32,313 bases of DNA from Bacteroidia bacterium. GTDB lineage: Bacteria > Bacteroidota > Bacteroidia > SpSt-205. Positions 2,754 to 25,638 of the stretch are shown here, in pieces (within the stretch, counting starts at the first letter, position 1; every line of letters begins with the position of its first letter). The notes beneath the pieces are model-generated. The model was not told the DNA's origin and did not search any database. It was given only the letters and a program-made list of their open reading frames with translations. Both the position numbers and the translations under genes were made by a program. The stretch covers positions 100,167-132,479 of the forward strand of contig JANXAJ010000001.1 in assembly GCA_025062295.1 (NCBI GenBank). Reading direction: 5' to 3'.

Positions 2754-5153
2754 TTAGAATGGATGTCCGACTGCAAATATGTATTGGCTGCGAGTCCCTC
2801 CGATTGGAAACTGACGAAAGATCCAGCCTGTTCCTGGATCAAATAGTTGCTGAGCAATATCTACCCGAATCACCAGAACGGAGAAGTCCCAGCGCAATCC
2901 CACTCCACCTGCTACGCCAGGGAGGGGGTTATAGCGAAGCAGTCCTCTTCTGTCTTCAAATAGGGTAGAGGTGAGAAACCATACATTCCCCACATCTAAG
3001 AAAGTGGCTATTTGGATTCCACGATAGAGGTGCTGTCGGAGTTCGGTATTCACTTCAAGGAGGAAAGCCCCCCCTGGGATGAGAAAAAGATTCTGAGGGA
3101 AGGTATAGCTGCCAGGTCCTAAGGCCCCAAACTGCCAAGCTCGCATGCTATTGGGTCCGCCTACAAAAAAGCGATTTTCAAAGGGGAGGTCTAAGGTATA
3201 ATACAGTCCCTGGCCCCAGCCGAGCCGTCCTCGCAGGTAAAGCTGCTGATTTGGACTGAGGAGCATCTGTCGCCATCGCCCCTCACTCAAGAGTCGGACA
3301 AATACTCCATACCGAAAACGGTTCAAAAAAAGATTGTCCCGATAGGTGCTATCTATCTGAGGTAGAGCTAAAGCCAAGAAATGTTCTGCTAAAAAGGGTA
3401 CCCATCCTCCTAATTCTATGAGTAGGGAAGAGAAGTCCCCTGATCCTCGGCTGCTGGAAAAGTAATTCCGATGGGTGGAGACTTGCCAGGCTGTGATTTG
3501 AGTGAGACGGGGCAGGTAGTCTCGCAGAATGAGGCTGCGAACAAGGGGAGAGAGTCCTTCTATTTGGGCTTCAAAGGCAGCGGAAAAGCGGCTTTCAACA
3601 AGGGTTAGACCTAAGGGTGTCCAGAGCTGTTCCTCTTGGCGCTTGTCTTGGAAGAGATAGCGGGTTTGACGACTCCAGCTAAGATTGGCGTATCGGCGAG
3701 AGAAGTCCATCTGGCGAATATCCTGATAGGAGAGGAGGAGATTATGCTGTTGTTGAGAGAGGGTAAAGGGGAGGGGGCGGGGTCTGGCTTCCCTCAGGTA
3801 GAAGGTATGTTCAGGGAAGGTAAAGCTTAGCTCCCCAACCACATTGTAGAGGGGAAGAGGAGGCTCGTTGGGTTGTCGCCGAAAATAGCTTAATGCAAAT
3901 TGAGCTCGTCCGCGACAAGCCCATCCCCGACGAAGGAGCGAGAGATGGGCTAATCGGGCATTGATACTAGCGCCAGGTAGCGGTAAGCTCCCTACTAAGG
4001 GTTGGGTAGATTGAAAGCCCTCTATACCAATTCCCACATCTAAAGGGGGACGCAGGACGACATCATATCGCACATGCAGAGTCTCCCCTTCACTGGGGAG
4101 AAGGGACGGACCTACCCACTGGACTGTTTCTATGCCTTGAAGGGAACGCTGAGAGGTAGAGATAGCTTTCTGGTCGTAATAAAGCCCTTGGGGATAGTAT
4201 AATCGCCCAATCAGGACTCTTCCATCTAAGATGGCGTCAGCTCGGGGCTCTGTACGCAGGCGGACTGAGCCAAAGTTTCGTTCCTGAGTCGATTCTGCAT
4301 CAGGGGTATGCATTACCACCTCTATTCTCCCATGGACATACCGTTTAGCTTCCTCTGTTAGGACGAGGCGCACCACGCAGGTGGGTTTGTCTGCCAAGCC
4401 ACTTCCTCTCCACCGGCGAAGAAAGCTGCGCGGACGCTCTATAAGCCTTCCCTCCTGAGTCGTGTCTACCTCCCACACGAGAGCACTGAGAGGGAGTCCG
4501 TGATAACCTTGGGCTAAAAAAAGGGCATGGAGCTCCTCTCTCAGAGGATCAAGGCGCTGCAAGCGGTAGGGCTCACCGACTGGTAGGAGTTGGTGTCGTA
4601 GATAGGCTTCAGCTAAGCTCACTAGGACCGAATCTTCACCCGTTACATCTAACTCTCGGATATACCACCGAGGTCCTGGACGAATACGGTAGATGACTTG
4701 GGCTTCTCCCTCCCTAAGCGGGCGAACCTGTGGCTGAATCGCTACTCTAAAGTATCCTTCCTGAATATAAGCCTCTTCCAAAAGGGCTACATCTTTCTCT
4801 ATATCTCGTTGAGAGAGGAGGGCGGGCGGTTCACCCAGTTTGTTTTGCAGGGCTTGACTGAAGGCATAGAGGTAGTATCGTAGTTTGGGGATTCGGCGCA
4901 GGGTTTGCCAGGGCTGACTTTGGCTCTTCTCAAGGAGAGTGCCTGCCCAGTAGAGCTGAAGAGCAACTCGCATGCCCATCATACGGCTATTGCTGCGGAC
5001 GTAAAGGGGTGGAACTTCCGGGAGCACATGCCCTCGCAGAATTGGCTCTCGGGCTATGAGCTGCTCCCCTGGTGGTATAAAGCGAAGGGGAGAGCATCCA
5101 CTTCCTAGTAAGCTACTGCTCAAAAGCCACAGCGCGCCCCGCCGGCTGCGCAT
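2754..5153 (-). CDS. BamA/TamA-family outer-membrane lipoprotein (TamL-like)
   Basis: Predicted 16-strand outer-membrane beta-barrel of the Omp85 superfamily. The 799-residue product starts with a signal peptide ending in LLGSGC, a lipobox-like site that would place Cys20 as the lipidated residue, followed by SPLRFIPPGEQL. A Cys followed soon after by a PxGE motif is typical of Bacteroidota TamL lipoproteins, which partner TamB. POTRA-like segments fill the N-terminal half (for example around GPRWYIRELDVTG). The barrel half has the family's FVGGPNSMRAW and LGPGSY motifs and ends in Phe, as outer-membrane proteins usually do. The ATG lies inside pyrC (41-bp overlap); the purine run AAGGAAGG 4 nt upstream is the only Shine-Dalgarno-like site I noticed. 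Last gene of queA-pyrC-tamL. No tamB is in the window, so the TamL assignment rests on sequence style alone. Confidence 0.85.
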   Translation of the reverse strand: MRSRRGALWLLSSSLLGSGCSPLRFIPPGEQLIAREPILRGHVLPEVPPLYVRSNSRMMGMRVALQLYWAGTLLEKSQSQPWQTLRRIPKLRYYLYAFSQALQNKLGEPPALLSQRDIEKDVALLEEAYIQEGYFRVAIQPQVRPLREGEAQVIYRIRPGPRWYIRELDVTGEDSVLVSLAEAYLRHQLLPVGEPYRLQRLDPLREELHALFLAQGYHGLPLSALVWEVDTTQEGRLIERPRSFLRRWRGSGLADKPTCVVRLVLTEEAKRYVHGRIEVVMHTPDAESTQERNFGSVRLRTEPRADAILDGRVLIGRLYYPQGLYYDQKAISTSQRSLQGIETVQWVGPSLLPSEGETLHVRYDVVLRPPLDVGIGIEGFQSTQPLVGSLPLPGASINARLAHLSLLRRGWACRGRAQFALSYFRRQPNEPPLPLYNVVGELSFTFPEHTFYLREARPRPLPFTLSQQQHNLLLSYQDIRQMDFSRRYANLSWSRQTRYLFQDKRQEEQLWTPLGLTLVESRFSAAFEAQIEGLSPLVRSLILRDYLPRLTQITAWQVSTHRNYFSSSRGSGDFSSLLIELGGWVPFLAEHFLALALPQIDSTYRDNLFLNRFRYGVFVRLLSEGRWRQMLLSPNQQLYLRGRLGWGQGLYYTLDLPFENRFFVGGPNSMRAWQFGALGPGSYTFPQNLFLIPGGAFLLEVNTELRQHLYRGIQIATFLDVGNVWFLTSTLFEDRRGLLRYNPLPGVAGGVGLRWDFSVLVIRVDIAQQLFDPGTGWIFRQFPIGGTRSQYIFAVGHPF

Positions 5154-6444
5154 AAAACCTTCCTTGATAAAAGCTCAAGACCCCATTGACCCAGACAGCT
5201 TCTACCCTCCCTTCCAAAGGCATGCCAAAGAGAGGACTCCAAGCCACTCGGCTATAGTGCAAGGGAGAACGAGGGGGGGGCACGCAAGTCTGACCCATGG
5301 GCTGGAAAAGAACCGCATCTGCCCAATTTCCTTCTTGTAGTCCTCCTCGCTCCTGAATCTTCCAGAGCCGAACCGGTGCATACACCATTTTCTCTATCCA
5401 GAAGCTGAGAGAGAGCCCCCTTGCGCGCCCAAGGGTCCAAAGCCAGGGCAGAAGCGCTCCATGGAGGGGAATTCCACTGGGAGCTTCAGCATACGGACGA
5501 ACTTTTTCTGTCCAGAGGTGAGGAGCATGGTCTGTACCTATAACCTCCAGGGTGCCCTCTATAATCCCCTGCCAGAGTGCCTCCTGATCAGCTGCTGATT
5601 TGAGAGAGGGATTGCATTTGAGGAAGTTCCTGTATTGAGGGAAGTCCTCTGCGCTCCACTGGAGATAAGTCGGACAAGTCTCTGCGGAGACATAAGGTGG
5701 GCGTTCTCTCAGCAGCTTGACTTCCTCAGCAGTAGTAATATGCAGAATGTGAATAGGAATAGAAGTACGTCGGGCCTCGCTTAGAAGCCATCTGGTACTT
5801 TCTATGCATGCCTCGGGGGGGCGCATGCGAGTATGAAGGTCAGGAATCTGTTCCCAGTCTGCTCCAGTCCATGTCTTCTGAGCTTGCTGAATGAGACTTT
5901 CTTTTTCACTGTGAAAAACCAGCCGAACGGGGCTCTCCTGCAGCAGATGCCGCACTACTTTTTCATCTGTGACTAAGAGCTCTCCTGTGGAGGAAGCTAA
6001 AAATACTTTGACCCCTGGTACTTGGAGGGGAGAAAGCCGTTTGATTTCTTCTATATTAGCTTCTGTTGCGCCGAAATAAAAGGCGTAGTTTGTCCAGCTT
6101 CTGAAGGCGGCGCGCTTCATTTTTTCTTCCCATTGGGTGATTGTCGTGGTGGGGGGCATGGTATTCGGCATGTCAAAAGCGGTAGTTACTCCTCCCGCCA
6201 GAGCGGCCCGACTTTCAGTGTAGAAGGTGCCTTTCTGAGAAAAACCTAAATCCCGAAAATGAACATGGGTATCAATCAGTCCGGGAAGAAGGTAGGCACC
6301 CTGAGCACTTAGCGAGGCTCCTGCAGCTCTCTCTGGAATGCGTCCAAAAGCTGCCCATCGCCCATCCTTAATCCATGCGTCACCTTCTTTTTCACCGGAG
6401 GGCAGGCAGAGCCGAGCATCCCGTATAATCCAATTCATCGCCAT
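5113..6444 (-). CDS. pyrC: dihydroorotase
   Basis: Zinc amidohydrolase that cyclises N-carbamoyl-L-aspartate to dihydroorotate, the third step of de novo pyrimidine synthesis. The 443-residue product has the metal-binding HVH at 60-62 followed by Arg64, the MPNT motif near 92-95, a lysine in PGVKVF (Lys146) at the position normally carboxylated to bridge the metals, and the distal GTDHAPH motif carrying the catalytic Asp. Length fits class I (PyrC-type, about 420-450 residues). The first motif reads HVHFRDLG rather than the usual HxHxREPG. The start overlaps the end of queA by 10 bp and the end overlaps tamL by 41 bp, so it is operon-internal, and no TAnnTTTG element precedes it. An in-frame ATG two codons downstream is an alternative start. 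A run of eight G (top strand) at 5273-5280 lies in the C-terminal part. Confidence 0.93.
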   Translation of the reverse strand: MAMNWIIRDARLCLPSGEKEGDAWIKDGRWAAFGRIPERAAGASLSAQGAYLLPGLIDTHVHFRDLGFSQKGTFYTESRAALAGGVTTAFDMPNTMPPTTTITQWEEKMKRAAFRSWTNYAFYFGATEANIEEIKRLSPLQVPGVKVFLASSTGELLVTDEKVVRHLLQESPVRLVFHSEKESLIQQAQKTWTGADWEQIPDLHTRMRPPEACIESTRWLLSEARRTSIPIHILHITTAEEVKLLRERPPYVSAETCPTYLQWSAEDFPQYRNFLKCNPSLKSAADQEALWQGIIEGTLEVIGTDHAPHLWTEKVRPYAEAPSGIPLHGALLPWLWTLGRARGLSLSFWIEKMVYAPVRLWKIQERGGLQEGNWADAVLFQPMGQTCVPPPRSPLHYSRVAWSPLFGMPLEGRVEAVWVNGVLSFYQGRFYAQPAGRAVAFEQ

Positions 6445-7559
6445 AAAAGGGAAGTATCTCCATAGCTTAGAAACCGAAATCCATTCTCTAAGGCGTAGGT
6501 ATAGACTCGCTCAATATCAGCTCGCCCAATAAAAGCTTGAACAAGCGCTAGTAGGGTGCTGCCAGGCAAGTGAAAGTTTGTGATGAGTCCATCGGTGAGT
6601 TGAAATGGATAGCCGGGAAGGATGTAGAGTGCGGTAGAGCCTTGAAGGGAGGGAGGAAGGGCGGAAAGGGCTTCGTGTGGGGGAAGGGTAGGGAGCATCT
6701 GCTGCCAGCAAAGGGGGGGTAGCTCAGTCATCATTATGCCGGCAGCACAGGAGAGCCCAAGCCAGTACAAGCTCTCTATGAGTCGAAGGGTAGTTGTACC
6801 TACGCAGACCACCGGTCCTTCTCCGCTTCGGAGAGCTTCAAGACTCGCCTCAGAGATAGAAAACTTCTCTGCGTGCATTGGATGTTTCTCTGGCTGGTCA
6901 GGGGTCTGAAGAGGAAGAAAAGTGCCTACCCCTACATGGAGGGTTACAGGATAGGTACGAATCCCTTTTGCTTTGAGGCGCTCCCATACCTCTTGAGTGA
7001 AGTGAAGTCCAGCCGTGGGTGCTGCCACAGAGCCAGGATGCTGAGCATAAATCGTCTGGTAGCGTTCTCGGTCTTGAGCCTCCACTTCTCGCCGAAGGTA
7101 AGGTGGGAGAGGCAGGCTTCCAAACGCCTCTATCACTTCTAAAGCAGCTCTCTCTGAAGGCGACCACATCGCTTGCACGAGACCTTGCCGCTCGTCCGCT
7201 TGATGAAGCCACTCAAGGGTGAGTCGCGCCTCTTTTCCCTCCCATTCCAGCCTTCCTTTCCGTCGCCAGAAACGAGCCGGCCGATAAAGCCCTTTCCACA
7301 CTTGAGGAGAACCGCTCATCCAGCTTCCTTCTACAATCTCAGTCAGCAGGAACTCCCGAGAGCCCTTCCTAAAGCGAGCTGGAATCACTTGAGTATCATT
7401 GTAAAAGAGGCGAGTGGATTCAGGCAGAACCTCAGCCAAGTGCAGAAAAATAGTCTCTGTTATTTCTCCTTTTTGATAGACTAATAGTCGAGCCTCATGG
7501 CGAATAGGAAGCGGATACTGAGCGATTCGGTCAGGGGGAAGCTCGTAGGACCACAGCAC
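6435..7559 (-). CDS. queA: S-adenosylmethionine:tRNA ribosyltransferase-isomerase QueA
   Basis: Transfers and isomerises the ribosyl group of SAM onto 7-aminomethyl-7-deazaguanine in tRNA to give epoxyqueuosine, the penultimate step of queuosine synthesis. The 374-residue product has the family's N-terminal YELPPDRIAQYP, the LFYNDTQVIPARF block, VAAPTAGLHFT, and the C-terminal ITNFHLPGSTLLALVQAF. Length and motifs are complete. The start is GTG at 7557-7559: it gives the expected N-terminus and sits 4 nt from an exact TAACTTTG promoter element. First gene of queA-pyrC-tamL and divergent from argS, with only 28 bp between the two start codons. Confidence 0.95.
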   Translation of the reverse strand: MLWSYELPPDRIAQYPLPIRHEARLLVYQKGEITETIFLHLAEVLPESTRLFYNDTQVIPARFRKGSREFLLTEIVEGSWMSGSPQVWKGLYRPARFWRRKGRLEWEGKEARLTLEWLHQADERQGLVQAMWSPSERAALEVIEAFGSLPLPPYLRREVEAQDRERYQTIYAQHPGSVAAPTAGLHFTQEVWERLKAKGIRTYPVTLHVGVGTFLPLQTPDQPEKHPMHAEKFSISEASLEALRSGEGPVVCVGTTTLRLIESLYWLGLSCAAGIMMTELPPLCWQQMLPTLPPHEALSALPPSLQGSTALYILPGYPFQLTDGLITNFHLPGSTLLALVQAFIGRADIERVYTYALENGFRFLSYGDTSLLWR

Positions 7560-7563
7560 TTCC

Positions 7564-7571
7564 CAAAGTTA
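7564..7571 (-). promoter_or_regulatory. -7 promoter element of queA operon
   Basis: The bottom strand reads TAACTTTG, an exact TAnnTTTG, then GGAA and the GTG start. In Bacteroidota the -7 element is followed by the transcription start after a few bases, so this mRNA is predicted to begin at or next to the GTG. Only 5 bp separate it from the oppositely oriented argS element. Confidence 0.6.
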
Positions 7572-7576
7572 GCGCC

Positions 7577-7584
7577 TACCTTTG
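7577..7584 (+). promoter_or_regulatory. -7 promoter element of argS
   Basis: TACCTTTG, exact TAnnTTTG, ends 3 nt before the argS ATG. The TTG within it is in frame with argS and can be misread as a start codon. No convincing TTTG appears at the -33 distance. Confidence 0.6.
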
Positions 7585-7587
7585 CGT

Positions 7588-9342
7588 ATGCCTTTCTGGC
7601 ACGCTCTTCTTGCTGAGTGGAGGGAGGCTTGGCAAGATGCCAATCTTCCCGAAATACCCCGTATCACCTTCACTCCCCCTGACCAGAGAGGAACTCTTAC
7701 CCTGAATATCTTCCCTCTTCTCAAGGCTTTCAAAGGAGATGCAAGTCAGGCGGCAGCTGCAGTTTTGCATCCTCTCAGGGAGGTTACCCATGTAGAAGTA
7801 ATCAAAGGGTTTGTAAATGTATCACTGAGCTCTGCGTTCTGGACGCAGTTTCTAAGGGAAGCCCTTGAGTCTCCAAGAGAGGGCTACACACATCTTTCTC
7901 TTGCCTCTGATCAGCATCTTATGATAGAGTATCCTTCTCCTAATACTAATAAGCCCCTTCATCTGGGACATCTTCGGAATCTTTGCTTAGGCGAGGCGGT
8001 GAGTCGGCTCTGGGAGCGCATAGGAGCTCGGGTAGTGCGGGTGAATTTAGTAAATGATCGCGGGATTCACATCAGCAAATCCATGCTTGGCTGGAGAAAA
8101 TTTTTCGCTCCTCAAACGCCTGCTTCTGTAGGAAAGAAGGGCGATCATTTCGTAGGAGACTGCTATGTTGCTTTTGAGAAGGCTTACAAGGCGCAAGTAG
8201 ATGCCCTCGTAGCTGCCGGTATGAAGGAGTCTGAGGCCCAAGTCCAAGCGCCTCTTTTTCAGGAAGCTCAAGCTCTCCTACGCCAATGGGAAGCAGGTGA
8301 TGAAGAGACACTCGCCCTCTGGCGTCAGATGAATGAGTGGGTATATGAGGGATTTGAGCAGACTTTTCAAAGGCTGGGCATCCGATTTGACCGAGTTTAT
8401 TATGAGTCGCAGACTTACCTTCTGGGGAAAGCGATTGTGGAAGAGGGGCTTGAGCGAAGGCTCTTTTATCGAGAGGAGGATGGGTCAGTCTGGGCAGACT
8501 TGACAGCGGAGGGGCTGGGGCGAAAGCTCCTCCTGCGGCGTGACGGCACTTCGGTATATATCACTCAAGACCTAGGAACAGCCGACCTCAAGTTTAGAGA
8601 CTATCCAACCCTCACTCGCAGTGTATATGTAATTGGAAATGAGCAAGATCATCACATGCGACTTTTATGTGCTCTCCTCAAGCGTTTGGGGCGCCCGTGG
8701 GCAGAGAAAATCTATCATCTCTCTTACGGCATGGTAGAGCTTCCGACAGGACGCATGAAGACGCGGGAGGGCACCGTGGTGGATGCAGATGAGCTCTTAG
8801 ATGAGATGTATCAGCGGGCGTATGAGCTCACAGATGCCGCTCTTCCTGAGAAGGAACGAGCCGCAATCGCTGAAGCTGTCGGACAGGGTGCCCTCCGATT
8901 TTATCTCTTGCGAACTGACCCAAAGAAGAATATCATTTTTGATCCTGCCGAATCCATAGACCTTAAGGGTTTTACAGGTCCTTTTCTGCAGTATGGATAT
9001 GTACGGGCTCTTCGTCTATTGGAGAAGGCTTCCGAGCGGGGGCTTGTCCCTCTTCCAACCGAGCCTCCTGAGCACTTAGAAGCAGCGGAGCTTTCGCTCC
9101 TTCAGCAGCTATTCGCTCTTCCCGCGATCTTAGAGAGTAGTGCAATGGGGTTTGATCCCGCAATAGCAGCCCATTACGGCTATGAACTCACTCGTCGTTT
9201 TAACGAAGTGTATCAGACGCTTCCTGTGCTGCAGGCTGAATCTGTGCTTCGGCAGTTTCGGCTGGCATTGGTGGGAGTCTATCACCACGCTATTCGGGCT
9301 CTCTTAGAAGTCTTGGCGATTCCCTTTCCCGCTCGCATGTGA
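7588..9342 (+). CDS. argS: arginyl-tRNA synthetase
   Basis: Class I aminoacyl-tRNA synthetase that charges tRNA-Arg. The 584-residue product has an N-terminal additional domain (about 1-105), the HIGH signature as HLGH at 125-128 within NTNKPLHLGHLRN, the VNLVNDRGIHISKSM block, a KMSKS-equivalent loop MKTREGTVV as usual in ArgRS, and a C-terminal DALR anticodon-binding helical domain from about residue 465 (QYGYVRALRLLEKA). I chose ATG at 7588 rather than the in-frame TTG at 7582 because that TTG is part of the TACCTTTG promoter element. Divergent from queA; purF follows after 21 bp and has its own element, so it can be transcribed separately. Confidence 0.96.
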   Translation: MPFWHALLAEWREAWQDANLPEIPRITFTPPDQRGTLTLNIFPLLKAFKGDASQAAAAVLHPLREVTHVEVIKGFVNVSLSSAFWTQFLREALESPREGYTHLSLASDQHLMIEYPSPNTNKPLHLGHLRNLCLGEAVSRLWERIGARVVRVNLVNDRGIHISKSMLGWRKFFAPQTPASVGKKGDHFVGDCYVAFEKAYKAQVDALVAAGMKESEAQVQAPLFQEAQALLRQWEAGDEETLALWRQMNEWVYEGFEQTFQRLGIRFDRVYYESQTYLLGKAIVEEGLERRLFYREEDGSVWADLTAEGLGRKLLLRRDGTSVYITQDLGTADLKFRDYPTLTRSVYVIGNEQDHHMRLLCALLKRLGRPWAEKIYHLSYGMVELPTGRMKTREGTVVDADELLDEMYQRAYELTDAALPEKERAAIAEAVGQGALRFYLLRTDPKKNIIFDPAESIDLKGFTGPFLQYGYVRALRLLEKASERGLVPLPTEPPEHLEAAELSLLQQLFALPAILESSAMGFDPAIAAHYGYELTRRFNEVYQTLPVLQAESVLRQFRLALVGVYHHAIRALLEVLAIPFPARM

Positions 9343-9351
9343 GCGGCTCAT

Positions 9352-9359
9352 TACCTTTG
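9352..9359 (+). promoter_or_regulatory. -7 promoter element of purF-murQ
   Basis: TACCTTTG, identical to the argS element, lies in the 21-bp argS-purF gap and ends 4 nt before the purF ATG. This suggests that purF-murQ has a leaderless transcript separate from argS read-through. Confidence 0.55.
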
Positions 9360-9363
9360 TTTT

Positions 9364-11226
9364 ATGTGTGGGGTCGTCTGGCTGCGCTTGCTCAAACCCT
9401 TAGAGGCTTACCCCACACCTGTTTGGGGGCTAGAAAAGGTTCTTCTCCTCGTTCAGAAACAGCGAAATCGGGGACAGGATGGAGCAGGACTCCTTACTTA
9501 TAAAGCCCATGTTCCTGTCGGAAAGCCGTACTTCTATACCAAGAAACTTACTAAACCTACCCCTCCTTGGCGCTTTCTCATAGAAGCAGTCTGGTCTGAA
9601 TGGGAAGCCTGGCAAAAAAGTGGGACCTCACCTTTGGAATTTCCTTTTGCCGGAGAAGGATATCTTGCTCATCTTCGCTATGGGACCTTCAGTGGATACG
9701 GACTAGAAGATACGCATCCTGTAGTTCGGCAAAATAGCTGGCCCTCTCGCAGTCTCGCTATCGCCGGAAACTTCAATCTGACAAATGCCGAGGAGCTTTT
9801 TCAGAGGCTTGTAGAGATGGGGCAGCATCCCCTCCATCGGGGTGATACATATACGATAGTTGAACGGATGGGGCACTTTTTGGATGAATTTGTGGAGCAG
9901 CTATACCAAGAAGCAAAATCAAAGGGACTCTCTAAGGTAGATGCGACGGACTACATTCGGCAGCGATTTTCAGTGAAGGAATGGCTTGAGCGGAGTGCTC
10001 GTCGGTGGGACGGCGGCTATGTGATTGCGGGCTGGTTAGGTACAGGTTGGGGATTTGTAATGAGAGACCCCTGCGGTATTCGTCCAGCGTATTATCTGGT
10101 AACAGAGGAGGCACTGGCAGTAGCCTCTGAAGCCGCTGCCCTTCATAATGTTTTTTCCGTTCCTCCAGAGAAGGTGCAAGAGCTACCCCCAGCCCATGCG
10201 CTCATTGTCTCACCGGAAGGGCAGTGGACTGTAGAACGCTTCACCGAGCCTGCTCCTCGTCCTCTTCGCTGTAGTTTTGAGCGCATTTACTTTTCTCGGG
10301 GCAATTCACCCCACATCTACACTGAGCGAAAGAGCTTGGGTGCTCTCTTAGCTCACGAAATCGCAAAAGTCTTGGATTACACTTTTGATCGAGTGATTTT
10401 TACATATATCCCGAATACATCCCAATCTGCTTTCTGGGGACTCCTCAAAGAGTTAGAAAATATCCTCATTCTCCAGCAGTTTCGTCAAATCCAATCTCGG
10501 CAGCTCTCCGAAGAGGAGCTTCGGGAGCTTCTTCAGCAGCGAATCCGCGCTGAATATCTGGTGTGGAAAGATACTCAGAGCCGTACCTTCATCTCCTCGC
10601 CGAACCTGCGTAAAGCGATGTCTCGTCATGTGTATGATGTGATTTATAACGTTGTCCAGCCTTCAAAAGATATTCTTGTTTGTTTAGATGACTCAATTGT
10701 AAGAGGTACGACCTTGCGAGAGACGCTCCTTAACACCCTTGGAAAGCTCCGACCAGCCCGTCTTATTATCGCCTCTTCCGCCCCTCAGATTCGGTATCCT
10801 GACTTTTACGGGATAGATATGGCCTCTCTCCACGAGCTTATCGCTTTTCAAGCCGCAGTAGCCCTCTTGAAAGAGTATAACCTTACAGAGGTTTTAGATC
10901 ACACCTATGCCTTATGTCAGCGGGCATATGGGAGTGAAGACTTTTATCGCAATAACTATGTCAAAGCGATATATGCGCCTTTCACCGAGGCGCAAATTGC
11001 AGGCAAGATAGCAGAGCTGGTCCGACCAGTAGACTTTCAAGTTCCCCTCACGATTGTCTATCAACCTGTTGAGAACCTCCCGAAAGCCCTACCTCATCAT
11101 CGGGGGGACTGGTACTTCACAGGTAACTACCCGACGCCCGGAGGCTACAAACAGGTCAATTTGTCTTTTATGCAGTTTTATGAGGGAAAGGTTCAACGGC
11201 GAGCGTACGAAACTGCTTCCTCATGA
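9364..11226 (+). CDS. purF: amidophosphoribosyltransferase, long Bacteroidota form
   Basis: Catalyses the committed step of purine synthesis: glutamine plus PRPP to phosphoribosylamine. The product begins MCGVV, so Cys2 would be the N-terminal nucleophile after Met removal. The glutaminase half has NRGQDGAG, HLRYGT and GNFNLTN (about 36-140). The transferase half has the PRPP loop as LVCLDDSIVRGTT. At 620 residues it is clearly longer than the roughly 470-510 usual for PurF: extra sequence sits between the glutaminase and PRPP loop (including the charged stretch around RQLSEEELRELLQQR) and at the C-terminus. From memory such long versions occur in Bacteroidota, so this looks like a lineage form and not an error. 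The stop overlaps the murQ start in ATGA, which implies translational coupling. Confidence 0.88.
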   Translation: MCGVVWLRLLKPLEAYPTPVWGLEKVLLLVQKQRNRGQDGAGLLTYKAHVPVGKPYFYTKKLTKPTPPWRFLIEAVWSEWEAWQKSGTSPLEFPFAGEGYLAHLRYGTFSGYGLEDTHPVVRQNSWPSRSLAIAGNFNLTNAEELFQRLVEMGQHPLHRGDTYTIVERMGHFLDEFVEQLYQEAKSKGLSKVDATDYIRQRFSVKEWLERSARRWDGGYVIAGWLGTGWGFVMRDPCGIRPAYYLVTEEALAVASEAAALHNVFSVPPEKVQELPPAHALIVSPEGQWTVERFTEPAPRPLRCSFERIYFSRGNSPHIYTERKSLGALLAHEIAKVLDYTFDRVIFTYIPNTSQSAFWGLLKELENILILQQFRQIQSRQLSEEELRELLQQRIRAEYLVWKDTQSRTFISSPNLRKAMSRHVYDVIYNVVQPSKDILVCLDDSIVRGTTLRETLLNTLGKLRPARLIIASSAPQIRYPDFYGIDMASLHELIAFQAAVALLKEYNLTEVLDHTYALCQRAYGSEDFYRNNYVKAIYAPFTEAQIAGKIAELVRPVDFQVPLTIVYQPVENLPKALPHHRGDWYFTGNYPTPGGYKQVNLSFMQFYEGKVQRRAYETASS

Positions 11227-19015: not shown

Positions 19016-19751
19016 TTTCACGCTGAAGGTAGAGTAGAAGAGTCGCAGCTATTGCTACATTCAGAGACTCTGCCTGACAAGTCGGGGAAGGAGGGATAGA
19101 GACGCGCTGCCAGTGGGCAGGAGCTTGGCTCACGCCGCGAGCTTCACTTCCGATGTACAAGCTATCATATTTCTCCCAGTCTATTTGATGGGCAGGTGTG
19201 CCATCTACTGCGGCTACTACACATCGTCCCTCATAGCCACTTAGCAAGAGAGACCACTCCTGAATACGCTCTACTCGCAAGCGAAAGAGACTTCCCATGC
19301 TGGCTCGCACTACTTTTGGGTGGAAAGGATCCACGCTCTCAGGCGATAGCCATAAATGGTGATATCCGAACCATTCCATGGAACGCAAAAGGGTTCCCAA
19401 ATTCCCTGGATCTTGAATCCCTTCTCCCAGCAGAGCAGGGGGATAGGGGGGGAAAGAGTGTAAGGGAGGCTGGATCAAGATAGCTACTACTCCTTCGGGT
19501 GTTTCTTGCCCACTAATCCGCTCTATTTGCCAGCGAGGAAGAGGATGGAGCTTGTCTCGTAGCTCTGTGGGGAGATCAGGGGGGGGAAGGGACTGATCGT
19601 ATAGGATCGCGTGGAATCGGGACGCGGGCAGACTGTAAAGGGCTTCCTTCAAGAGCTTTCTGCCCGGCGCTATAAAAAGCTTCGCCTCTCGGCGATGTCT
19701 GCTCTCGTGTAGTCGACGATAATACTCAGGTGGATGAGGTAGGGGACGCAC
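18963..19751 (-). CDS. SpoU/TrmH-family rRNA or tRNA 2'-O-methyltransferase
   Basis: SPOUT-fold methyltransferase that puts a 2'-O-methyl group on RNA ribose using SAM. The 262-residue product has a short N-terminal substrate-binding domain (about 1-95) and the three family motifs: motif 1 in IQDPGNLGTLLRS, motif 2 IGSEARGVS, and motif 3 ending in AESLNVAIAATLLLY, which form the trefoil knot. It resembles RlmB/YsgA-type enzymes, but the target nucleotide cannot be told. GTG start at 19751, inside the DUF349 gene (26-bp overlap), so co-transcribed with it; no TAnnTTTG precedes it. The 3' end overlaps pdhB by 53 bp. Confidence 0.9.
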   Translation of the reverse strand: MRPLPHPPEYYRRLHESRHRREAKLFIAPGRKLLKEALYSLPASRFHAILYDQSLPPPDLPTELRDKLHPLPRWQIERISGQETPEGVVAILIQPPLHSFPPYPPALLGEGIQDPGNLGTLLRSMEWFGYHHLWLSPESVDPFHPKVVRASMGSLFRLRVERIQEWSLLLSGYEGRCVVAAVDGTPAHQIDWEKYDSLYIGSEARGVSQAPAHWQRVSIPPSPTCQAESLNVAIAATLLLYLQREIKAGRLHTLPPLSPSEG

Positions 19752-21585
19752 TCGCTGATTGCAGACGCTGCTGCAAACGCCTGATCATCTCTTGCATGCG
19801 AGCAATTTGCACCTGAGTATCTGCTATCTTACTCTCTATTTCCTTCCGCAGGGCTTCACTGCCTTTGCCCCGAGAGAGTAGGGTAATGGTGTTTTGGTAT
19901 CCTCGGAGATCCTGCTTATGCTTATTTACTTGCGCTCGAAGGGAATCAATACTTTTACGAATCTGCTCTGGGGATTGGTTGGAGATTTGGGCTACCATGA
20001 GCGCTTCTTGGAAGGTAGCTTCATCTACTCCTGAATTTGTTAGGAAACGCTGAATCGCCTGACGCTGGCGATTCAAAAGCCGCTCCCGATGAGAAGGAGC
20101 TACTTCGCCTGCTTGTTCATACTCTAAAAGCTTAGCTATGAAGGCGTCTAATTTATCGGGAGTCGCTTGTTCGCCCAATTCATCCATTTGGTTGAGCAGG
20201 TGGATGCGCTTCTCAAGGTTATCAGAGAGTTTCTGCAGGTAGGCTTTCTGAGAGGATTGAAGCTGTTCTCTTAGGGCTTTGAGCTGGTCAGCTACTGCAG
20301 CGATAGAAGGTTCTTTCAGCAGGCGATGGGCCCGACGCCGCCAAGGCCCTATCTGAGCTCTATAGAATTGGACTGCGTCAAGAATGTTACTCTTGAGGCG
20401 CTTCTGAACCTCCTTGATAATCTGCTGCCCCATCTCAGAGATACGCGCAATCTGCCGACGGCGATATTCTTCGCTGAAGCTTTCAGATTTCTCATTGAAA
20501 ATATCTAACAATTCGCTGAATTGCTGATTCAGAGGGGCATAAAACTTTCTCACTTCCTTTGAGTCATCTTGAGCCAATGACTTTTCAGTCAGTGAGCGCC
20601 AATCTCGTACATATTGACGAATTTGTCGGTTAACCTGTTTCCACTCTTCCAATGAACTAAAAGACTTTTCAACTAAGGGGCGGAGAAGTTCTATGATTTG
20701 ACGCTTGCGGCGGAAGGTCTCTTGGAGGATAGGATTTTTCTGAATGCGCTGATAAGCTTGTGAGCGAAAAAGGGTATATTGTTCTCGGAATTCGGCGATA
20801 AGTTGGCGATAGCGTTGAGTGAGCTCGCGCTCTTGCCGATTGCGCAGGCGAGGGAGAGACTGCCATTCACTCTGGAGAAGAGCGAGACGATCTCTCTGCT
20901 GCTGCCAAAACTCAAATGTAGTCTGGGCTCCTTCGGGAGGAAAGAGTCGCTCAATTTCGGTCAGAATCTGGGCTCGGCGTTGGAAAAGGGCGTTTCGTTC
21001 CCCCTCAAAAATATCCTTATAGGGCGCATAGAGTGCTTCAAACTGTCTAAGGAAGTCTAAGAGAGGACGCTCTAACTCTTTACGATCTGCTGGCAAGAGT
21101 TCGGTCCGAAGGCGAAGCCATTCTCGGCGGATGTGCCGTACTCGTGGATAAGCGTCTAATTGCTCGTTGAGAACAATATCTTTCAGTTCCGCCAGAAAGC
21201 CACGAACTTTCTCAGCATTTTCTTTACATCGCTGTTCGTAAGCTTTCCGAATCTCTTCAAACTGGATAACAGCATCCTCAAAGCGCCGCTGAAACCCTTC
21301 TAAGCGGGGTATGTCTTCTTTTGGATGGGATCGCCACTCGGGCAAACTTTGATTGACATATCGCTTGAAAGCCTGAACCAGGACATTGAAGGTACGGCGG
21401 TAGGGCAGCCTAGCCAGATACTCCATCAGTAAGGTAACCTCCGAAAGATGAGGACGCCAATCTAATAGCTTGCGTTTGAGGCTCTCAGAGGATTCATCCA
21501 AGAGGTCTTGAAGGGTTTTTCTTAGGTGCTCTTCAGGAAAAGAGACCTCAGCATCCGATCTTTCAGGCGTATGAGGCTCTGCCAT
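19726..21585 (-). CDS. DUF349 repeat protein, coiled-coil rich
   Basis: Function unknown. The 619-residue product is almost entirely alpha-helical, highly charged and rich in Arg, Gln, Glu and Leu. I see about four degenerate repeats of roughly 75-85 residues, each with a conserved Trp (EW, W, DW) and a long pair of helices, the pattern of DUF349; this fits the 600-plus-residue DUF349 proteins of Bacteroidota. The C-terminal 120 residues look like a coiled coil ending in a Ser/Pro tail. No signal peptide. I chose ATG at 21583-21585 (MAEPHTPER): the 11-codon extension upstream reads across an exact TACCTTTG promoter element. Divergent from usp; co-transcribed with the methyltransferase, which makes a role in RNA or ribosome biology possible but unproven. 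Confidence 0.8.
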   Translation of the reverse strand: MAEPHTPERSDAEVSFPEEHLRKTLQDLLDESSESLKRKLLDWRPHLSEVTLLMEYLARLPYRRTFNVLVQAFKRYVNQSLPEWRSHPKEDIPRLEGFQRRFEDAVIQFEEIRKAYEQRCKENAEKVRGFLAELKDIVLNEQLDAYPRVRHIRREWLRLRTELLPADRKELERPLLDFLRQFEALYAPYKDIFEGERNALFQRRAQILTEIERLFPPEGAQTTFEFWQQQRDRLALLQSEWQSLPRLRNRQERELTQRYRQLIAEFREQYTLFRSQAYQRIQKNPILQETFRRKRQIIELLRPLVEKSFSSLEEWKQVNRQIRQYVRDWRSLTEKSLAQDDSKEVRKFYAPLNQQFSELLDIFNEKSESFSEEYRRRQIARISEMGQQIIKEVQKRLKSNILDAVQFYRAQIGPWRRRAHRLLKEPSIAAVADQLKALREQLQSSQKAYLQKLSDNLEKRIHLLNQMDELGEQATPDKLDAFIAKLLEYEQAGEVAPSHRERLLNRQRQAIQRFLTNSGVDEATFQEALMVAQISNQSPEQIRKSIDSLRAQVNKHKQDLRGYQNTITLLSRGKGSEALRKEIESKIADTQVQIARMQEMIRRLQQRLQSASASPTSST

Positions 21586-21595
21586 ATAGCTCAGA

Positions 21596-21603
21596 CAAAG
21601 GTA
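21596..21603 (-). promoter_or_regulatory. -7 promoter element of the DUF349-SpoU operon
   Basis: The bottom strand reads TACCTTTG, exact TAnnTTTG, 10 nt before the ATG. This is the longest gap among the protein genes here, so a leader of a few nucleotides is expected. Confidence 0.5.
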
Positions 21604-21617
21604 CAATGAAAAGGGCA

Positions 21618-21625
21618 TACTTTTG
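21618..21625 (+). promoter_or_regulatory. -7 promoter element of usp
   Basis: TACTTTTG, exact TAnnTTTG, ends 5 nt before the ATG at 21631. The two divergent elements are 14 bp apart. Confidence 0.6.
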
Positions 21626-21630
21626 TAGAT

Positions 21631-22446
21631 ATGGGGAATCTCCTTGCTAGCATAGACTATAGTCCGGCTTCCATTCGGGCATTAGAAGCTAGCCTTCGTT
21701 TGCGCCAGTTGACTGGAGACCGAGTGGTGCTCTATCATGCTTACCAATTGCCTAAGGGACTTCCTTTTCTTTCAGCTCATGTCATAGAGGGTATGGAAGT
21801 AGAAGCTCAGCGGGCTGCTCAGGAGCGTCTTCGCCGCTTTCTCAGCGAAACTTTGCCTCCAACAGAGGCGCGCCGGATACGGATTATCATCCAGCGAGAG
21901 TTTCTGACGGAGGGACTCAGCCAGCAGCTTCGGGCAAGGAGATATTCCCTTTTAGCGCTGGGAGCTCGGGGGGAGAGCACCGAGGATGGAGAACGCATAG
22001 GCTTCCATGCCCGTCATTTCGTATATCACTCTTCTGTGCCACTTCTCCTTACTTTTCCGAAGACAGAGGTTCGTTGGCAGCGGCTTCTTTTTGCTTACGA
22101 ACCTACATTTCGCTCTTCGGTGGGCCTTCGTACGCTGCGCCAGATCATCCAGAAACTTTCCCTTCCTGTGGTAGGTCTTCCCCTTCTCAAAATGAACCCT
22201 ACTGCAGACCGCTTTCACAAAAGTATTCTCAAGGCAACCCGCGCCTCCCACTATCAGCCTCTTAGGTGGGAAGGCTCTCACTTAGTTCGACTCCTTATCC
22301 AAGCAGCTCGCTCCTATCAAGCTGATGTTATTGGGTTTTATGCTCACCCTCAGGAGGTCATCACAGGTATGCAGGCTTTGTCAGAAGCTGAGTTAGAGGA
22401 AGGGGCCGGTTGGCTGTTCTTCCCCCCCCTCTCAGACGAAGGATAA
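21631..22446 (+). CDS. tandem-domain universal stress protein
   Basis: UspA-superfamily protein with two Rossmann-like Usp domains in 271 residues: domain 1 about 1-140 (LLASIDYSPASIRALEASLRL) and a more degenerate domain 2 about 145-265 (RLLFAYEPTFRSSVGLRTL). Tandem Usp proteins of this size are common in Bacteroidota. The ATP motif Gx2Gx9G(S/T) is present in domain 1 as G111-AR-G114-nine residues-G124, but Phe125 replaces Ser/Thr, so nucleotide binding is uncertain. No membrane segment. Divergent from the DUF349 operon, with a promoter element 5 nt before the ATG. A run of eight C lies at 22422-22429 near the C-terminus. Confidence 0.87.
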   Translation: MGNLLASIDYSPASIRALEASLRLRQLTGDRVVLYHAYQLPKGLPFLSAHVIEGMEVEAQRAAQERLRRFLSETLPPTEARRIRIIIQREFLTEGLSQQLRARRYSLLALGARGESTEDGERIGFHARHFVYHSSVPLLLTFPKTEVRWQRLLFAYEPTFRSSVGLRTLRQIIQKLSLPVVGLPLLKMNPTADRFHKSILKATRASHYQPLRWEGSHLVRLLIQAARSYQADVIGFYAHPQEVITGMQALSEAELEEGAGWLFFPPLSDEG

Positions 22447-25584: not shown

Positions 25585-25592
25585 CAAATGTA
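25585..25592 (-). promoter_or_regulatory. -7 promoter element of the SDR gene
   Basis: The bottom strand reads TACATTTG, exact TAnnTTTG, then AGGG and the ATG. Predicted leaderless. Confidence 0.6.
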
Positions 25593-25630: not shown

Positions 25631-25638
25631 TATCTTTG
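25631..25638 (+). promoter_or_regulatory. -7 promoter element of the lepA operon
   Basis: TATCTTTG, identical to the pdhB element, ends 7 nt before the lepA ATG. It is 38 bp from the divergent SDR element. Confidence 0.55.

Follow-up and report, generated by a model that had tools for sequence, protein, structure and literature searches.

The queA/argS junction poses the question of whether two divergent promoters set almost back to back form a regulatory device, or whether their crowding is a by-product of how promoters are placed in this lineage. The junction lies in the window, the whole 32,313-nucleotide stretch analysed, whose numbering is used below unless a contig or locus is named, and the genome that carries it (G000) is a 2.05 Mb Bacteroidia genome.

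Layout of the queA/argS junction

The features of the locus are as follows.

2754-5153, minus strand: tamL-like outer-membrane assembly gene, third in the run headed by queA
5113-6444, minus strand: dihydroorotase gene, second in that run
6435-7559, minus strand: QueA-family gene, 374 aa (NCBIfam TIGR00113, E 5e-79, 265.7 bits, slightly below the 267.45 cut-off)
7557-7559, minus strand: GTG start codon of queA and predicted mRNA 5' end; GTG or ATG at the same codon in relatives
7564-7571, minus strand: queA -7 element TAACTTTG (top-strand letters CAAAGTTA), with 4 nt from the G of TTTG to the GTG
7572-7576, no strand: spacer GCGCC between the elements, 5 bp, length not conserved
7577-7584, plus strand: argS -7 element TACCTTTG, with 3 nt from the G of TTTG to the ATG
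7588-7590, plus strand: ATG start codon of argS and predicted mRNA 5' end, invariant among relatives
7588-9342, plus strand: argS, arginyl-tRNA synthetase, 584 aa (NCBIfam TIGR00456, E 1e-107, above the cut-off)

As read from the sequence, 28 bp lie between the two start codons, and the first-pass annotation, which had reported two exact -7 elements 5 bp apart in this start-to-start region, was correct to the base. Its proposal that both mRNAs begin at their start codons also agrees with our reading, in which the element-to-start gaps of 4 and 3 nt predict leaderless queA and argS mRNAs, and in both directions the promoter regions beyond about -29 do fall inside the coding sequence of the opposite gene, as it had stated. 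The left-hand genes, on the other hand, do not form the tRNA-modification operon that it had named, the actual run being queA, dihydroorotase and tamL-like.

The motif TAnnTTTG occurs 34 times in the window against 13.7 expected, a count matched in none of 100 shuffles. No further exact copy was found upstream of argS on the plus strand within the window, nor upstream of queA on the minus strand over 5.8 kb, and by inspection the -33 TTTG element is absent from both promoters. A second QueA-family gene in the same genome (C12:35133-36404, equivalent to L085:15133-16404) is 27% identical to the window queA, and neither of the two reaches the curated QueA cut-off. Beyond the argS stop codon, a purF-like gene (ATG at 9364) has its own TACCTTTG at 9352-9359, 4 nt 5' of its start and just 9 bp past that stop codon.

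Conservation of the elements and drift of their spacing

Eight genomes of the family hold the divergent queA-argS pair, with the window's own genome counted and one belonging to another genus. All eight have an exact queA element and seven an exact argS element, the exception being G009, which carries CAAATTTG with one mismatch; these relatives are kin, so that such conservation counts are not independent. Between the elements lie 5, 6, 6, 10, 16, 16 and 3 bp in the seven, and 24 in G009. An alignment of the junction across relatives, which the first-pass annotation had suggested, thus bears out the elements and not their spacing.

In the congeners G002 and G008 queA and argS are unlinked, and both promoters are intact: argS has an exact TACCTTTG or TAACTTTG 3-4 nt before its start codon, and queA an exact TAACTTTG or TACCTTTG 4 nt before its own. 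The 3-nt distance at argS is retained in G002, G003 and G005. Judged by this conservation in noncoding DNA, both are true promoter elements, and since neither gene loses its element on separation from the other, the elements belong to the genes and not to the pairing. Their autonomy in G002 and G008, together with the drift of spacing, argues that the 5-bp distance is not under selection. Nor is this distance special within the genome, where other pairs stand 2, 4 and 5 bp apart and the elements of one pair overlap; the importance that had been attached to it is not supported, given a range of 3-24 bp in relatives and the commonness of tight pairs in the genome.

The -7 element and start codons across the genus

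The gap statistics for G000 cover 1.39 Mb of the genome, sampled in stretches, with 1056 ORFs. Measured between -7 element and in-frame start, gaps peak at 4 nt (96 ORFs) and 5 nt (53), while 228 of the 1056 have gaps of 3-9 nt and nine a gap of exactly 3 nt; gene calls were ORF-based with the start chosen by motif proximity, so that exact gap counts are slightly inflated, by an amount bounded by control distances and reversed motifs. At 3 nt, argS falls one below the usual 4-5, and a start exactly at the A of its ATG needs slightly short spacing. The distribution is similar in two congeners, G006 and G004 (the public Bacteroidia MAGs KatS3mg025 and SKYB87), and the peak at 4-5 nt is absent from six other Bacteroidia sampled. 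With one mismatch allowed, an element at 3-9 nt precedes 63% of first genes in G000, 84% in G006 and 68% in G004, as compared with 11%, 3% and 18% at control distances for the same genes; the six other Bacteroidia have 12-29% at 3-9 nt and 12-22% at the control distance.

Among genes whose upstream neighbour is divergent, 41.5% have the element at the start; for codirectional genes that overlap or lie close (<=15 bp) the share is 8.5% (Fisher p 5e-36). Being frequent before divergent starts and rare inside operons, the element marks promoters rather than translation, and because start sites in F. johnsoniae, whose -33 box is weak and hard to see, lie 4-5 nt past the -7 element (PMC6847099), the genes concerned are predicted to be leaderless or nearly so. 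Taken over 337 promoters, the genus shows no TTG/TTTG peak near -33; positions -20 to -17 form an AT-rich stretch. The 16S 3' end was not found in the stretches sampled.

Back-to-back pairs, with 0-30 bp between elements, number 50 in the whole G000 genome, where the reversed control pattern gives 4; in the 11 other family genomes searched the corresponding counts are 31-72 and 0-4. In most other Bacteroidia the excess is small or lacking. Outside the family an excess was seen in G051 (143 vs 23), G059 (105 vs 43), G044 (60 vs 17) and G055 (35 vs 8), whose lineages could be further leaderless-rich ones. Among the 177 divergent pairs in the 1.39 Mb sampled from G000, an exact element stands at each start in 37, and in 18 of these the elements are at most 30 bp apart. 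When ten further tight pairs were examined, their partners proved mostly functionally unrelated (topoisomerase/response regulator, RuvX/thiolase, GAPDH/HemS and PurE-like/FtsX, for instance).

The spacing shows no helical phasing, there being no 10.5-bp periodicity among 367 pairs from seven genomes. A preference for 14 bp appeared in four genomes and again in three others (12 vs 4.7 expected, p 0.003), which we do not claim, several of the pairs looking orthologous. The window itself has CAAAGGTA and TACTTTTG back to back at 21596-21625 with 14 bp between them, serving genes at 19726-21618 and 21631-22446, the former of which probably has its true start at an internal ATG near 21585; G006 and G002 have similar pairs, also with 14 bp, that look orthologous, and the spacing may have been kept here. 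A third pair in the window, between a short-chain dehydrogenase-like and a lepA-like gene, has exact -7 elements at both starts (25585-25592 and 25631-25638), 38 bp apart.

The tightest arrangement is that of dusB and cysS, another tRNA-modification/tRNA-synthetase pair, in which a single palindrome, CAAATATATTTG, contains both -7 elements and the divergent starts are 20-21 bp apart.

C2:25362/25383 (L069:4325-5362 and 5383-6858; also L277, L278 and L280), minus and plus strands: dusB/cysS in G000

Sharing of CAAATATATTTG is kept in four species (G000, G002, G003 and G005); in other congeners with the pair cysS, and usually dusB, is on a separate element.

Two probably autonomous promoters and the alternatives

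We consider it very probable that the junction holds two autonomous promoters back to back, with their crowding a side effect of leaderless promoters and genome compactness. Each promoter would be read by the primary Bacteroidota sigma factor and be set almost wholly by its own TAnnTTTG, with no detectable -33 box; transcription would begin at the start codon, or within a base or so of it, giving leaderless queA and argS mRNAs, and, to judge from footprint size, one RNA polymerase at a time would occupy the site. The habits of the lineage, -7 elements placed at a short and constant distance from the start (mostly 4-5 nt) and a compact genome, would be such that divergent genes need only about 28 bp between their starts. 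The overlap would then have no regulatory role. The drift of spacing, the autonomy of the elements and the unrelated partners elsewhere make this by-product account the best supported; counted against it is that most of the family retains the pair together with both elements, a pattern that selection on the pairing could produce as well.

The first-pass annotation had held that two polymerases cannot bind together and that the two genes would therefore compete directly. Simultaneous binding is indeed sterically implausible from the polymerase footprint, and every spacing up to 24 bp is probably too short for two enzymes, but direct competition as a function is unsupported. That the overlap was selected as a device, polymerase competition coupling queA and argS expression inversely, would fit the retention of the gene pair with both elements in eight family genomes, as well as dusB/cysS, where a second tRNA-modification/synthetase pair is tighter still. 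However, a spacing that drifts, genes that come apart in G002 and G008 with their promoters intact, and an arrangement that is common and mostly joins unrelated partners all speak against such a device, and five sterically exclusive bidirectional promoters of E. coli show no competition at basal activity and do so only when one side is strongly activated (PMC12825309); we therefore regard it as unlikely.

Two further readings deny one or both elements their role. If only one promoter worked, or one gene were read from a distant start, the other element would be a chance or relic match, and the single mismatch in the argS element of G009 and the position of the argS gap at the short edge of the distribution would be accounted for; this is quite improbable, as there is no alternative exact TAnnTTTG within kilobases upstream of either gene on its strand in the window, and conservation of the two 8-mers in noncoding DNA extends to genomes where the genes have separated. 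If TAnnTTTG served the translation of leadered mRNAs and were not part of a promoter, its fixed distance from start codons genome-wide might be explained in a phylum mostly without Shine-Dalgarno sites (PMC6847099), but the motif is about five-fold rarer before operon-internal genes and is identical to the -7 consensus obtained for the phylum by start-site mapping, which leaves this reading very improbable indeed.

The two elements agree with known Bacteroidota sigma-ABfr-type promoters in their exact TAnnTTTG (TAHHTTTG), with non-G at -10 and -9, and in having no clear -33 box, as in F. johnsoniae, the -33 box not being a strict requirement; they differ in lying 3-4 nt from the start codon, with no 5' leader predicted. 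The bidirectional promoters described by Warman, Grainger and colleagues in E. coli and other prokaryotes likewise have divergent starts too close for two polymerases and are a compact source of two mRNAs, but in them a single symmetric -10 element serves both directions and the starts are commonly 10-23 bp apart, whereas queA/argS has two separate asymmetric -7 elements and predicted starts about 29 bp apart. Although its workings are somewhat similar, queA/argS is not a bidirectional promoter by the published definition, no core element being shared; in dusB/cysS of four species one core element is common to both directions. In the leaderless genes of Actinobacteria, Deinococcus-Thermus and archaea the promoter core likewise stands a short, constant way from the start codon, and this in a large share of first genes; the difference is that the core element here is the Bacteroidota -7.

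Leaders reported elsewhere in the phylum are longer, with a median of 32 nt in B. thetaiotaomicron (3.7% of leaders <10 nt; PMC7366714) and of 24 nt in F. psychrophilum (5.5% leaderless mRNAs; PMC9723704). A 2011 survey for TATAAT-like signals covered 37 Bacteroidetes/Chlorobi genomes and detected leaderless genes in 1 (PMC3160421). In the library searched, we met with no description of a leaderless-rich Bacteroidota lineage and no mention of KatS3mg025, which is weak evidence of novelty. The genus probably makes perhaps half or more of its first-gene mRNAs leaderless, or nearly so, from -7-only promoters, and as a result has many divergent genes crowded onto -7 elements that exclude one another and are sometimes shared as palindromes.

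The queA/argS locus is best taken as a tidy example and not a device, and the genus-wide pattern is of more interest, since leaderless mRNAs are reported to be rare (about 4-5%) in Bacteroides and Flavobacterium. If true, the pattern would make the genus an exception within its phylum and a natural test of how translation starts in bacteria without Shine-Dalgarno sites, and the lineage would show a route to leaderless initiation in a phylum that abandoned Shine-Dalgarno initiation. The 31-72 cases per genome of divergent promoters that can probably not both be occupied, the conserved palindromic one included, would also allow tests of whether exclusion has a regulatory effect.
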